64,000 nucleotides of DNA, taken from contig JAHWKY010000002.1 of the NCBI GenBank assembly GCA_019347575.1, positions 62,001-126,000 on the forward strand, written 5' to 3'. Below, piece by piece: positions 50,325 through 58,105 of this stretch. This DNA comes from Actinomycetota bacterium (lineage in GTDB: Bacteria > Actinomycetota > Nitriliruptoria > Nitriliruptorales > Nitriliruptoraceae). The position numbers and the translations under genes are program-made. Position 1 is the stretch's first letter. The number at the start of each line of letters is the position of its first letter. The notes below the pieces were generated by a model that saw only the letters and a program-made list of their open reading frames with translations, searched no databases and had not been told where the DNA came from.

Positions 50325-51101
50325 GTGTCAGAGCAGGCCATGGTCGACGTCGACACCCTCCGCAGCGAGGTGTCGGCGCACTACGCCGAGGTCGCCGAGC
50401 ATCCCGAGGGCGAGTACCACTTCCACACCGGGCGCACCGCGACGACCCGGCTCGGCTACGCGGACGAGCTGCTCGAGGGCCTTCCGGAGCCGTGCATCGA
50501 GGCCTTCGCCGGCGTCGCGAACCCGTTCGCCTGGGGGCCGCCGCAGCCGGGTGAGCGCGTCGTCGACGTGGGCTCGGGTGCCGGACTCGATTCGCTCATC
50601 GCGGCGCGATCGGTCGGGGCAGATGGGGCGGTGATCGGTGTAGATATGACCCCGGCGATGCTGGAGCGTGCGGGGCGCAACGCCGAGGCGGCCGGAGTCG
50701 GCAACGCCGAGTTCCGTCAGGGCTTCGCGGAGGAGCTGCCGGTCGAGGACGGCTGGGCCGATCTCGTGATCTCCAACGGGGTGCTCAACCTCGTCCCCGA
50801 CAAGGTCGCCGCGTACCGCGAGATCTTCCGCGTGGTGCGCCCCGGCGGTCGCATCCAGATCGCCGACGTCTGCGTCGAGCGTGACGTGCCGGATGCGGCG
50901 AAACGGGACATCGACCTCTGGAAGGGTTGAATCGCCGGGGCGCTGGCCTGTCCAGGTTGGACGGCCATCATCGAAGGGGTCGGTTTCCGCGATCTGCGTT
51001 TCGGCGAGTCGGTCGACACCTACGGCGGGGCGTCGGGCGAGGGCAACGCTCGCACCTACGGCGTCTCCGGCTACCCGTTCACCGCCGTGAAGCCGGCGTA
51101 G
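50325..51101 (+). CDS. ArsM-like SAM-dependent methyltransferase with in-frame TGA, candidate selenoprotein
   Basis: Codons 1-201 encode a class I methyltransferase: SAM motif I VVDVGSGAGLDSLIAA (80-95), VIGVDMTPAML, LVISNGVLNLVPDK and GGRIQIADVCVERD. Codon 202 is TGA (50928-50930), after LWKG. The same frame then continues for 56 codons (IAGALACPGW to YPFTAVKPA) to TAG 51099-51101, with about 86% G/C at third positions and the C-terminal DTYGGASGEGNARTYGVSGY expected in this family. From memory, relatives have Cys in a GCIAGAL-like motif at the TGA position. A SECIS-like hairpin follows. Read-through as selenocysteine gives 258 residues; otherwise this is a nonsense mutation truncating the protein. 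Confidence 0.78.
50944..50967 (+). promoter_or_regulatory. Candidate bacterial SECIS element
   Basis: TGGCC (50944-50948) pairs with GGCCA (50963-50967); a single T (50949) is bulged; GTCCA (50950-50954) pairs with TGGAC (50958-50962); the apical loop is GGT (AGGTT if the top pair opens). A bulged U a few pairs below a loop containing GGU is the hallmark of the E. coli fdhF SECIS. The GG is 25-26 nt after TGA, within the 16-37 nt range I recall for bacterial SECIS searches. Confidence 0.62.
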
Positions 51102-52514: not shown

Positions 52515-52949
52515 CTACAGGACGTCCGAGGGCGGGACGACGGTGAGCTGGACGTCGATGTTGCCCGCGACGGCGTTGCTGAAGGGACAGACCTTGTGGG
52601 TCGCGTCGACGAGCGCTCGGGCCTCGTCCTCGTCGAGTTCGGGCAGGCTGACGAGCAGCTCCACCTCCAGACCGAACCGGCCCGCCTCGAACATGCCCAG
52701 GCCGACCTGCGCGGTCACCCGGGAGCCCGTGGCGTCGAGCTTCATGCGCCGCGCGACCAGCAACATGGCGTTGTCGAAGCACCCAGCGAAGCCGGCCGCG
52801 AAGAGCTGCTCGGGGTTGGTCCCCGGGCCCCCCGGACCACCGAGCTCCTTCGGGAGGGCCAGCTCGAGGTCGAGCCGGCCGTCGGAGGTGTGCACGTGCC
52901 CTTCCCGGCCGCCCGTGGCGGTGGCATCGGTGGTGTAGAGGATCTTCAT
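52515..52949 (-). CDS. ohr: Organic hydroperoxide resistance protein (Ohr/OsmC family)
   Basis: A 144-residue thiol peroxidase that reduces organic hydroperoxides. The redox pair is Cys57 (FAGCFDNAML) and Cys121 (KVCPFSNAV), and the N-terminus MKILYTTDATATGGREGHV and the conserved Arg and Glu match Ohr rather than OsmC. ATG 52949 has GGGAGGG upstream. No OhrR regulator is visible nearby. The gene ends just beside the methyltransferase remnant on the other strand. Confidence 0.92.
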   Translation of the reverse strand: MKILYTTDATATGGREGHVHTSDGRLDLELALPKELGGPGGPGTNPEQLFAAGFAGCFDNAMLLVARRMKLDATGSRVTAQVGLGMFEAGRFGLEVELLVSLPELDEDEARALVDATHKVCPFSNAVAGNIDVQLTVVPPSDVL

Positions 52950-53039
52950 CGCGTCCCTCCCGGTCGCTCCCCGTGGTGTAGTGGCTGATCGCGGCCACGC
53001 CAACGCCGCGTCGCTGCGTGACACCCGCTCGGGTGAGCG

Positions 53040-53465: not shown

Positions 53466-56400
53466 TCACGAGCAGCCGCTCGTAGTGCCGCAGGACTCGC
53501 ACACGTGGCACGCCCCGGCCCGCTTCATCTTGATGCCGCAGTTGAAGCACATCGGGGCGTCGACGTCGACGCGGTTGGTCGGGGCGGGCGACTGGGGCAG
53601 CTCGGTCGCTGCCTCCGGCACCGCTGCTTCCGCGGAATCACCGTAGCCATCGGCGTCGAGCGCCTCGGTGCGCTCGCTCGTCGTCGCGATGCGGAGCGCC
53701 GCGCGCTTGTCGGCGGGCAGGTACTCGATCGCGAGCTTGCGCGCGATGAAGTCGACGATCGAGGTCGCGAACCGCACGTCGGGATCGTCGGTCATGCCGG
53801 CGGGCTCGAAGCGCATGTTCATGAACTTCTCGATGTACGCGTCGAGCGGGACCCCGTACTGCAGGCCGAGCGACACGCTTATCGCGAACGCGTCCATGAC
53901 ACCCGACAGGGTCGAGCCCTGCTTGCCCAGCTTGAGGAAGATCTCGCCGAGACCGTCGCCGGGGTACTCCCCGGCCGTCAGGTAGCCCTGCGCGTCGCCG
54001 ACCTGGAACGAGATGGTCTGGCTGGGGCGCTGCCTGGGCAGCTTGCGCCGGATCATCCCTTCTTTGACCTGGATGCCGCCGGTCTCGCCCGCCACCCCCC
54101 CAGCCTTCTTCGTGACCGACAGGGGCTGGCCGACCTTGCAGTTGTCGCGGTAGATCGCGATCGCCTTCAGGCCGAGCTTCCAGCCCTCGTAGAACAACTG
54201 CTCGACGTCCTCGACCGTCGCCTCTTCCGGAACATTCACGGTTTTCGAGATTGCTCCGCTGAGGGCTGGCTGGCAGGCAGCCATCATCTTCACGTGCCCC
54301 ATGTAGTGGATGGCGTTGTCGCCCATGGCGCACTGGAAGACGGCGCGGTGCTCCTCACGCAGGGCCGGTGCCCCGTCGATGGTCTTGTTCTCATCGATGT
54401 GGGCGATGATCGCCTCGGCCTGCTCGGCGTTGTAGCCCAGGTGCTCGAGCGCCGCGGGGATCGACTGGTTGACGATCTGCATCGAGCCACCGCCGACCAG
54501 CTTCTTGGTCTTGACCAGCGCCAGGTCGGGCTCGATCCCGGTCGTGTCGCAGTCCATCATGAGCCCGATGGTGTTGTGGCTCACGAACCCGTTGGCGATG
54601 TAGGTGACGTTGTCCGGCACCGACAGGTCGTAGGTCAGCTCGTCCTCGCCGAGCTCTGCCGAGGCGACCTCGTCGTAGAAGAAGCCCAGCAGGTGACCCA
54701 ACTCCGCGTCCGCCGTGGCGTCGAACACCTCGCTGGCCAGGCGACGCGACACCGAGGCCGTCCGGCCGAGCGCCATCAGGAGCAGCTTTCGGAAGCGGCC
54801 GTTGTGCGGGGCGACACGGTCGATGAGTTCGCGCGTTATCGGGATGTGGTCGTAGCGCGCGCTCTGTTGACTGCCCTTGATCGCAACGCCGGCGTTCTTG
54901 CGGTCCGAGATGAACCCGACCTCCTCCAGCCACGGCTCGTTGTAGGACGAGTTGAGGATCCGCAGGACCGCGAGATCGGAATCGCCCCAGCCGGAGCGGT
55001 CCATCTTGCGGGTGGTCGGGTAGCCCATCGCGAGCAGCAGCGACTGCACGTCGTGGGACAGCTGGAGCGACGTCGTCGACCAGCTCGGGTACCCGCCCCC
55101 GGCCACGGTGCCATCCGCCTCGAACAGGCCGCGCACGAAGGCGGAGTAGACCGCGCGGTCGTTGGTGTACAGGATCGCGTCCGGGATGTGCGGCTCCCAG
55201 CCCTTCCCGCTGTGGCCCGGCTGCGGCACGCGCTTGGCGAAGCCGACCGCCTCCCACCACTCGACCAGCCGGACCGAGTGGAACGCCACCTCGGTGTAGC
55301 CGACCTGCTCGGTGACGTGCGCCTCGAGGTTGAACAGCTCCTTGCCGAGGACCTTGAGGCGCTCGATGACATCCCAGTCCTCCGCCGCGACGCACAGGCG
55401 GATGCCACGCGCGTGCAACGAACCGTCACCCATGAAATAACCGACCAGCTCGGCGAGCTGCGGCGTCACCTCGCGGGGCGCGACGGCGTGACGCTCGCCG
55501 GTCCAGTAGCCCTCGCCGAGCGGCGACAGGCTCACGCTCTGCGGCTCGCCGACGAGCTGGTCCAGCGACAGCGGCACGCGATCACCGGCAGCGATGTCGC
55601 CGAAGCGCTTCCACTCCCACGTGCCGTCGGGCCGTACGACTTTGATGCGGTGCTTGGGCGTGCCCTGGATGCGGTAGCCGCGCCCGGTGTTGACCGTCAC
55701 CACGGACTCGAGCCCGTTGACGTAGAACTTGCTCGCCTCGCGGACGCCCTCGTCCGTCGCGACGTCGATGCCGAGGTCCTGCCACTGCTCCCCCGCCGGA
55801 TCCCCCAGCGAGGTCAGGCGGACGAGTCCGCGCTCGGTCGGCACCAACGTGCCACCGACGAGGCAGCCGGTAGGAGCGAGCACTGAGGCCTGGCTGTTGC
55901 GGTAGCCGTGACGCTCGCCGAGCGTCAGCGCCTCGTCCCAGGCGGTGCGGGCCGCTTCGAGCAGATCCTCTGGGACCCTGCGCGGGTCGATGTCGTCGAC
56001 CGCATCGCGGTGCTTGCCGATGACGCGCAGCATCGGCTTCTCGTTCTTCTTGTAGCCGTCGAAGGCACCCACGACGCGCGCGAACTCGGCCGAGCTGCGG
56101 TAGGCGTGCCCGGTCATCAGCGCCGTGATGGCGCCCGCCCAGGCGCGACCCTCGTCGGAGTCGTAGGGCAGCCCGATCGACATCAGCAGCCCACCGAGGT
56201 TGGCGTAGCCGAGGCCCAGCTCGCGGAACGCCCGCGCGTTCTCGCCGATCTTCTCGGTCGGGTAGCTGGAGTTGCCGACCAGGATCTCCTGGCCGAGGAA
56301 CACGACCTCGACCGCGCGCTTGAACGCCTCGACGTCGAAACGCCCCGTCTCGTAGTCGTAGAACTTCTTGAGGTTCAGCGACGCGAGGTTGCAGGCGGAG

Positions 56401-58040
56401 TTGTCGAGGTGCATGTACTCGCTGTTGTGCACGATCACGCTCTGGCCGAGCGAGATGCTCGCACTCGTAACCGCGAAGTTGTGCGTGTCATCGACCTCGA
56501 GGTCGTAGACCCGCACGGGCTCGGCCTCCTCCTGCCGACGTACCCGTTCCACCACGTCGGTTGCGTCGTCACCGTGCTCATCGACGGCACGCAGTTCCGT
56601 TCCGACGTCGAGCAGTCGAGCTTCGACGTACGCGCCCGCAGCCGTCAGGAACCGGTGCTCGGGCGTGCACACGAGCGCCAGCCCGCCGACCGTGCGGACC
56701 TCGACGAGCGACGTCGTCTCGCCGGCCACCCACACGTTCATCATCGGCCGCAGAACGTGCTTGCCGGTCACACGGTCGAACGCGCGGACCTCGGGCAGAG
56801 GCTGGCCCGCGCTTGCGAGCTTCTCGAGGCGCTCGAACTCGATGAGGCCATCCGTGGTGTCGACCAGCGTCTCGCCGACGAAGCAGCACGGGTTGGAGCC
56901 GTTGATGCGCCCCGACTCGGGCGCGGTGTGCCAGTCGTTGATGGTGGTGTCGTACTGCATGCCGGGGTCGGCGCACTCCCAGGCGGCCTCGGCGATCTGT
57001 CGCATGACGTCGCGAGCGCTGCGCTGGTCGAGGGCCTCACCGGTGGTGACGGCACGCACGTCGTAGTCGGTCTCGTCCTCGTACGCCTTCATGAACTCGT
57101 CGGTGACACGCACCGAGTTGTTGGCGTTCTGGTACTGGATCGAGTGGCTGTCGGCACCGTCGAGGTCCATGTCGAACCCGGCCTCACGCAGCACCCGGGC
57201 CTTGCGCTCCTCGGACGCCTTGCACCAGATGAAGTCCTCAACGTCAGGGTGGTCGACGTTCAGGATCACCATCTTGGCCGCTCTGCGGGTCTTTCCTCCG
57301 GACTTGATCGTTCCCGCAGAGGCGTCCGCGCCCCGCATGAAGCTGACCGGTCCCGACGCGGAACCTCCACCCTGCAAGGGCTCCTTCGACGAGCGGATGG
57401 CCGACAGGTTCACGCCTGCACCGGAGCCGCCCTTGAAGATGATCCCCTCTTCGCGGTACCAGTTGAGGATCGAGCTCATCGTGTCCTCGACCGACAGGAT
57501 GAAACACGCGCTCGCCTGCTGGGGGACGCCGGGGACGCCGATGTTGAACCACACCGGGGAGTTGAACGCGGCCTTCTGGTTGACCAGCAGGTGCTTGAGC
57601 TCGGCGTTGTAGATCTCGGCCGACTCGGCGTCGGCGAAGTAGCCGTCCTTGAGCCCCCAGGCGGTGATGGTGTCGGCGACGCGGTCGACGATCTGGCGCA
57701 CGGAGCGCTCGCGCTCGGGCGTGCCGAGCTGACCGCGGAAGTACTTCTGCGCGACGATGGTGGTGGCGTTCATCGACCACGTGGTGGGGAACTCGACGCC
57801 CCGCTGCTCGAAGTTGACCGTCCCGTCCCGCCAGTTCTTGATGACCGCGTCGCGCAGCTCCCACTCGATCTCGTCGTAGGGGTGGACGCCCTCGGTCGAG
57901 AAGTAGCGGTTCAGGCGCAGCCCGAGGCCACCGTCCCCCCCTCGCGGGGCGGTGTGCAGCGGCGCGTGTTCGGCCAGCACGATGGGGTCGGTCGACCCGT
58001 CGGCGGCGGGGTTGGGGGTGTCGTCGGTCTTCTTGGCCAT
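53466..58040 (-). CDS. nrdJ: Adenosylcobalamin-dependent (class II) ribonucleotide reductase with two inteins
   Basis: This enzyme reduces ribonucleotides to deoxyribonucleotides using a cobalamin-generated thiyl radical. From ATG 58040 (GGAG six bases upstream) the precursor is 1524 residues; removing inteins of 154 and 431 residues leaves 939, a normal NrdJ. Extein motifs include [57 protein letters not shown] (interrupted by intein 1 after the catalytic-site Cys) and [23 protein letters not shown] (interrupted by intein 2). The C-terminus is a Cys-rich zinc-like tail ([20 protein letters not shown]). The promoter carries a NrdR-box palindrome and DnaA-box-like 9-mers. Confidence 0.96.
   Translation of the reverse strand: [1524 protein letters not shown]
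54573..55865 (-). other. Intein 2 in NrdJ (431 aa, with LAGLIDADG endonuclease)
   Basis: Residues 726-1156 of the precursor: starts Cys ([17 protein letters not shown]), has block B [17 protein letters not shown]-type motifs [11 protein letters not shown] and [11 protein letters not shown], block F [17 protein letters not shown] and ends VSHN before Thr. It splits APTG from TIGLMMDCD, a highly conserved extein site. The endonuclease acidic residues (Asp in both motifs) are intact, so homing may still be possible. Confidence 0.93.
56424..56885 (-). other. Intein 1 in NrdJ (154 aa mini-intein)
   Basis: Residues 386-539 of the precursor: starts [13 protein letters not shown] (Cys1), block B [11 protein letters not shown], block F [16 protein letters not shown] and block G VIVHN before Ser. 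There is no endonuclease domain between blocks B and F. It sits directly after the NPC cysteine of the active-site loop, so unspliced protein cannot be active. Confidence 0.93.
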
Positions 58041-58076
58041 CTGAGGCTCCGGCTCCGGTCGAGTTGCGGTCGTGTG

Positions 58077-58105
58077 ATTACAGCGACGGCATCCCGGCAT
58101 GTCAA
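58077..58105 (-). promoter_or_regulatory. Sigma-70-type promoter of nrdJ
   Basis: On the minus strand TTGACA (58105-58100) is followed after exactly 17 bp by TGTAAT (58082-58077). The predicted transcript would start near 58070, about 30 nt before the nrdJ ATG. It is one of the closest matches to the consensus in this GC-rich window. Confidence 0.65.

Follow-up and report, generated by a model that had tools for sequence, protein, structure and literature searches.

The question raised by this locus, which lies in a window of 64,000 nucleotides (the whole stretch of DNA that was analyzed), is whether a reading frame containing a TGA codon ends at that codon or continues through it and, if it continues, on what substrate the resulting methyltransferase might act. 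Apart from the one TGA, the gene is a single uninterrupted frame of 258 residues (Table 1), for which an alternative ATG start is possible at 50340. Under the standard code, the ORF stops at 50930 and gives a product of 201 residues. Translation of the frame places DIDLWKG directly before the TGA at codon 202, followed by 56 codons up to a TAG at 51099 to 51101; this agrees with an earlier preliminary description of the sequence, which had reported the TGA, the preceding LWKG, and the same downstream extent. Judging from the computational evidence, we regard it as highly likely that the locus encodes a selenoprotein, with selenocysteine (Sec) at UGA 202.

Table 1. Features of the methyltransferase locus and of two genes downstream of it (positions within the window)
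Feature	Coordinates	Strand	Remarks
ArsM-like methyltransferase gene	50325..51101	+	GTG start; TGA 202 read as Sec; TAG stop
Val64 codon	50514..50516	+	Opposite CmArsM Cys72, an As ligand absent here
Gly152 codon	50778..50780	+	Opposite CmArsM Cys174, an As ligand absent here
TGA codon 202 (Sec202)	50928..50930	+	Aligns with Cys224 of CmArsM
SECIS-like hairpin	50944..50967	+	5 bp, bulged U at 50949, 5 bp, GGU loop at 50955-50957
Cys209 codon	50949..50951	+	7 residues C-terminal to Sec202
Ohr/OsmC family peroxiredoxin gene	52515..53024	-	1.4 kb downstream, opposite strand
Ribonucleotide reductase-like gene	53466..58100	-	1544 aa; apparently two intein-like insertions

The codon aligned with residue 202 was TGA at 101 of 111 loci and TGC at the other 10; no other codon was found. 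Two sources supplied these homologous loci: 66 genomes of the same class, and a species-level genome collection, which was scanned once. The count includes loci found in both collections, and the distinct proteins number 101 (92 Sec forms and 9 Cys forms). It is mainly this comparison that excludes chance, and it bears out the earlier proposal that Sec replaces Cys here, since the TGA aligns solely with TGA or TGC in relatives and never with the codon of an unrelated residue. A TGA homologue is present in 26 of the 66 class genomes, and the carriers as a whole are annotated as Actinomycetota, Chloroflexota, Dormibacterota, Pseudomonadota, deltaproteobacterial groups, Acidobacteriota, and Gemmatimonadota. 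When the window gene was compared with its four nearest relatives, dN 3′ of the TGA was about 0.16 to 0.18, versus a dS of 0.7 to 1.1, a contrast resembling that found upstream of the TGA in the same five sequences. That dN lies well below dS after the TGA indicates selection at the protein level on the downstream part.

In bacterial SECIS elements resembling that of E. coli fdhF, a hairpin closely follows the UGA and has both a U bulge and a GGU loop. The hairpin that the preliminary description had singled out, with its bulged U, its GGU loop, and a GG 25 to 26 nt past the TGA, was found as placed; its sequence (UGGCC-U-GUCCA-GGU-UGGAC-GGCCA) forms ten base pairs. It resembles the fdhF-type element in its nearness to the UGA, its bulged U, and its GGU loop, and it differs in having ten base pairs and a bulge five pairs below the loop. 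No Rfam family matched at the hairpin, the best candidate (ROSE_2) falling far under its gathering score. Folded as a 25-nt segment, the window hairpin reaches −14.9 kcal/mol (z, −3.65), and none of 200 dinucleotide shuffles was as low; compared with synonymous-codon shuffles of its protein segment, it beats 99.7% of recodings (p about 0.003). In a 53-nt fold around the hairpin, the signal vanished (z, −0.39), owing to the high GC content of the region; the statistics thus hinge on the segment chosen. When the codons for an energy test were pooled from within the hairpin region, nothing useful emerged; the informative tests were those of a narrow segment with outside codon usage, together with the covariation count.

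That count was made on 74 TGA sequences of relatives, in which nucleotides 13 to 19 (from the T of the TGA) pair with nucleotides 25 to 31 to form 7 bp, with 96.5% of cells paired. Five of the seven pairs are altered on both sides (e.g., G-C and C-G at columns 14/30), none of 500 shuffles matched this pairing and covariation, and pairing in slid registers did not exceed 46%. A run of at least 6 pairs in this register was found in 86% of TGA homologues and in none of the 9 TGC homologues. The comparison of folding among relatives that the preliminary description suggested therefore revealed a covarying downstream hairpin, albeit in a register other than that of the window, whose loop lies about 8 nt farther from the UGA. 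In this respect, too, the window differs from the fdhF type: its relatives use another hairpin, with a loop about 8 nt nearer the UGA.

The source genome is a draft of 4.9 Mb in 120 contigs (98.8% complete, 4.6% contamination). As the preliminary description anticipated for a genuine Sec codon, it encodes a tRNA-Sec with anticodon TCA (76.8 bits, above the family cutoff) and adjacent selA (498 bits) and selB (278 bits) genes, both above their cutoffs; the exception was selD, for which the 120-contig draft gave only subcutoff matches. An assembly gap is the likely cause, given that selD is present in 49 of the 66 class genomes. Among class genomes with completeness of 90% or more and contamination of 5% or less, selA occurs in all 12 TGA carriers and in 12 of the 21 others (Fisher p, 0.012, with kinship ignored). 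The family gene itself is located near selA or selD in a few relatives, at 25 to 28 bp from selD in two. Two other genes of the draft also have an in-frame TGA. One, near selB and selA, is a formate dehydrogenase alpha-like (FdhA) gene with the TGA in ARIUHSS (L158; C26, 31654 to 32397, reverse strand), which is a probable further selenoprotein of this genome; the other encodes a SelW/Rdx-like small protein with the TGA in a CVPU motif (L166; C33, 31831 to 32049, forward strand).

We propose that SelB and Sec-tRNA(UCA) would decode UGA 202, assisted by the hairpin starting 13 nt past it, and that the ribosome would read on to the TAG to yield a 258-residue class I SAM-dependent methyltransferase of the ArsM superfamily. 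By the standard code, of course, the ORF ends at 50930, and the gene might instead have been truncated at codon 202 by a nonsense mutation, the remainder being a remnant; a recent TGC-to-TGA change was the alternative offered by the preliminary description. We reject this very improbable reading because the TGA is common to 101 loci of a family spanning several phyla. The selection acting 3′ of the TGA, the covarying hairpin in relatives, and the presence of Sec machinery and further Sec genes in the genome likewise argue against truncation. Translation past a UGA does not by itself name the residue inserted, and a variant code or a suppressor tRNA could in principle supply another amino acid. 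This we find scarcely credible, and an alternative genetic code was rejected, because the genome has selA, selB, and a tRNA-Sec with anticodon UCA, and because 64 of the family's 101 genes with an internal TGA still use TGA as their terminal stop codon; in addition, TGC is the sole alternative codon at the site.

The window protein matches Methyltransf_31 (hmmscan E value, 1e-31), which identifies it as a class I SAM-dependent methyltransferase, and it also matches NCBIfam ArsM-type models, scoring under the cutoff of every one. CrArsM and CmArsM ranked first in a sequence search against solved structures, and the best PDB matches of an AlphaFold2 model (mean pLDDT, 95.5) were ArsM structures (Z, 26). 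The fold is thus shared with canonical ArsM and AS3MT (CmArsM, 4fr0 and 6cx6, with a Z of 26; CrArsM, 5evj; human AS3MT, 8xt7). Aligned identity with algal ArsM is 31 to 36%, the Cys224 equivalent being present as Sec; the window protein differs from canonical ArsM in having Val64 and Gly152 in place of Cys72 and Cys174 and in its shorter C terminus. By analogy with Cys224 in ArsM, we infer that Sec202 may be an active-site nucleophile or a ligand that holds a soft substrate beside SAM. Cys209 is a possible candidate for a resolving or second-ligand residue.

Alignment to CmArsM places Sec202 on Cys224, Val64 on Cys72, and Gly152 on Cys174, such that only one of the three As(III)-coordinating residues of ArsM, the Cys224 equivalent, is kept, and then as Sec. 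Gly occupies position 152 in all 92 Sec and all 9 Cys proteins; at position 64, most of these 101 family members have Val, Thr, or Ile. Activity of CmArsM on arsenite depends on three cysteines and that on monomethylarsenite (MMA) on two of them (174 and 224); the C174A and C224A variants have no activity on either substrate, and DMA(III) requires one thiolate only (PMC3877260). A survey of ArsM orthologues found all three cysteines conserved (PMC5552862). The cysteine motifs (LGCG or L-GCG, SNCVINL or SNCVVNL, and GCI(A/S)GA) are retained in ArsM-like proteins of the class (L142 and L144, and L141 over its aligned part), as well as in annotated ArsM proteins that Paenibacillus and Rubrobacter encode within ars operons; in another ArsM-like protein, L143, Ser replaces the first Cys. 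The family also has an invariant HFH.GR stretch in its N-terminal part, which stands where annotated ArsM proteins carry a CC motif. Against NF008823, the window protein reaches 211 bits, short of the 263-bit cutoff, which no gene of the source genome passes. In a literature search, which was incomplete, we found no paper noting the missing As ligands, and we make no claim of priority.

The family gene has a DsrE gene as a neighbor at 12 loci (same strand and less than or equal to 300 bp away at 9 of these) and a gene for an ArsR-rhodanese regulator at 12 loci, both as raw counts with no background rate; other neighbors, again as raw counts, were a metallo-beta-lactamase/rhodanese protein (4 loci), SelA (4 loci), and SelD (4 loci). 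These recurrent neighbors in relatives weakly indicate sulfur or selenium chemistry. Single-query tblastn, a search of limited sensitivity, found no homologues of ArsC, ArsH, or ArsN1 in the 660 kb surrounding 80 family loci. The window gene's own neighbors, a GAF histidine kinase and Ohr, give no pointer to a substrate, and between the window and its nearest relatives (L051 to L056) no synteny was conserved beyond the gene itself. An OsmC gene likewise adjoins the haloarchaeal HFETGR relative L167, and the ribonucleotide reductase-like gene listed in Table 1 lies beyond Ohr.

Since only one of the three As-coordinating residues is left, methylation of arsenite or monomethylarsenite in the manner of ArsM is probably not what this protein does; the loss of two ligands, taken together with neighbors such as DsrE, ArsR-rhodanese, and SelD rather than ars genes, points away from arsenite. 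Our reading of the sequences is that the window protein probably has some other substrate, more likely one requiring just one selenolate contact. This might be a reactive sulfur or selenium species, in view of the DsrE, rhodanese, and SelD genes adjoining in relatives, or else a monothiol-bound metalloid; none of these candidates, taken singly, is more than tentatively favored. Of the substrates first suggested for this protein, arsenic is accordingly weakened by the absence of two of the three ArsM ligands, while the wider wording (selenium or other thiophilic substrates) is still tenable. It is conceivable, albeit unlikely, that the protein is a genuine Sec-dependent arsenite methyltransferase in which Sec202 tightens As binding and glutathione or other residues replace the lost ligands. 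ArsM proteins are, after all, its closest solved structures by both sequence and fold, NCBIfam and reviews call the family arsenite methyltransferase, and one thiolate is enough for DMA(III) (PMC3877260). This must be set against the Val, Thr, or Ile and the invariant Gly that stand for Cys72 and Cys174 in the family, the inactivity of CmArsM C174A on arsenite and MMA (PMC3877260), the retention of the cysteines by annotated ArsM in ars operons and by same-class ArsM-like proteins, and the low-sensitivity search that found no ArsC, ArsH, or ArsN1 homologue around the family.

Sec-containing ArsM-like proteins have already been catalogued, and the finding is therefore less new than the preliminary description supposed. 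Two reviews (PMC9312934 and PMC13188914) list an “arsenite methyltransferase” with the motif UxxG as a selenoprotein (PRK11873/NF008823); the first source cited for it in PMC9312934 is Fomenko et al. 2007, and the review example is WP_011987699.1. The window protein shares with this entry the superfamily, the UxxG motif (here UIAG), and Sec at the equivalent of CmArsM Cys224, but it scores below the model (211 versus 263 bits) and is without the two As-binding cysteines. NCBIfam also describes double selenoproteins built on the same domain, namely, NF041537 (ArsM_AhpD_UU), NF041536 (ArsM_DUF2284_UU), and NF047649 (MTase_UXPK_star). Their methyltransferase domain aligns over residues 7 to 228 of the window protein at 190 to 220 bits, the Sec region included. 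In contrast to these, the window protein, at 258 residues, stands alone without an AhpD, DUF2284, or UXPK-star part, has a single Sec, and scores far under their cutoffs of 460 to 575 bits. It is, then, a new stand-alone member of the already reported Sec-containing ArsM-like proteins.

When a quick maximum-likelihood tree was rooted on ArsM, the Cys forms of the branch made up one clade (support, 99) lying within the Sec forms. No more than two changes of state are required, which is consistent with Sec having been gained once and having reverted once to Cys. Cys194 is present in 8 of the 9 Cys forms, and Cys is not among the main residues at that position in Sec forms. Conversely, 71 of the 92 Sec forms have Cys209, and Cys does not figure among the residues recorded at that position for the 9 Cys forms. 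The partner residue thus seems to differ between the two, which is an observation and not a mechanism. A second ArsM-like protein is encoded near the family gene at two loci (L145 in G003 and L147 in G045); these tandem paralogues have Gly at 152 and Cys at 202 (AWAGCIAGAL and AWAGCVAGAL, respectively). There is also a sister group of Cys proteins (L050, L137 to L140, and L167), found in the same class and in haloarchaea, with HFETGR and LWA(S/A)CIGGA motifs and Gly at 152. One tentative picture of the HFHTGR branch as a whole, which we hold with clear reservations, is of Sec-dependent methyltransferases acting on a chalcogen species (persulfide, sulfide, or selenide, for example) or on a singly bound metalloid, and not on arsenite, with Sec ancestral and a single return to Cys accompanied by a new Cys194.

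A standard-code reading gives this protein as a 201-residue product without its probable active-site residue, and the same holds for homologues in several phyla. If the argument about the substrate is right, a widespread selenoprotein family bears a misleading name. A Sec-containing transferase would, moreover, widen Sec chemistry past the redox reactions that are thought to cover most prokaryotic selenoproteins.
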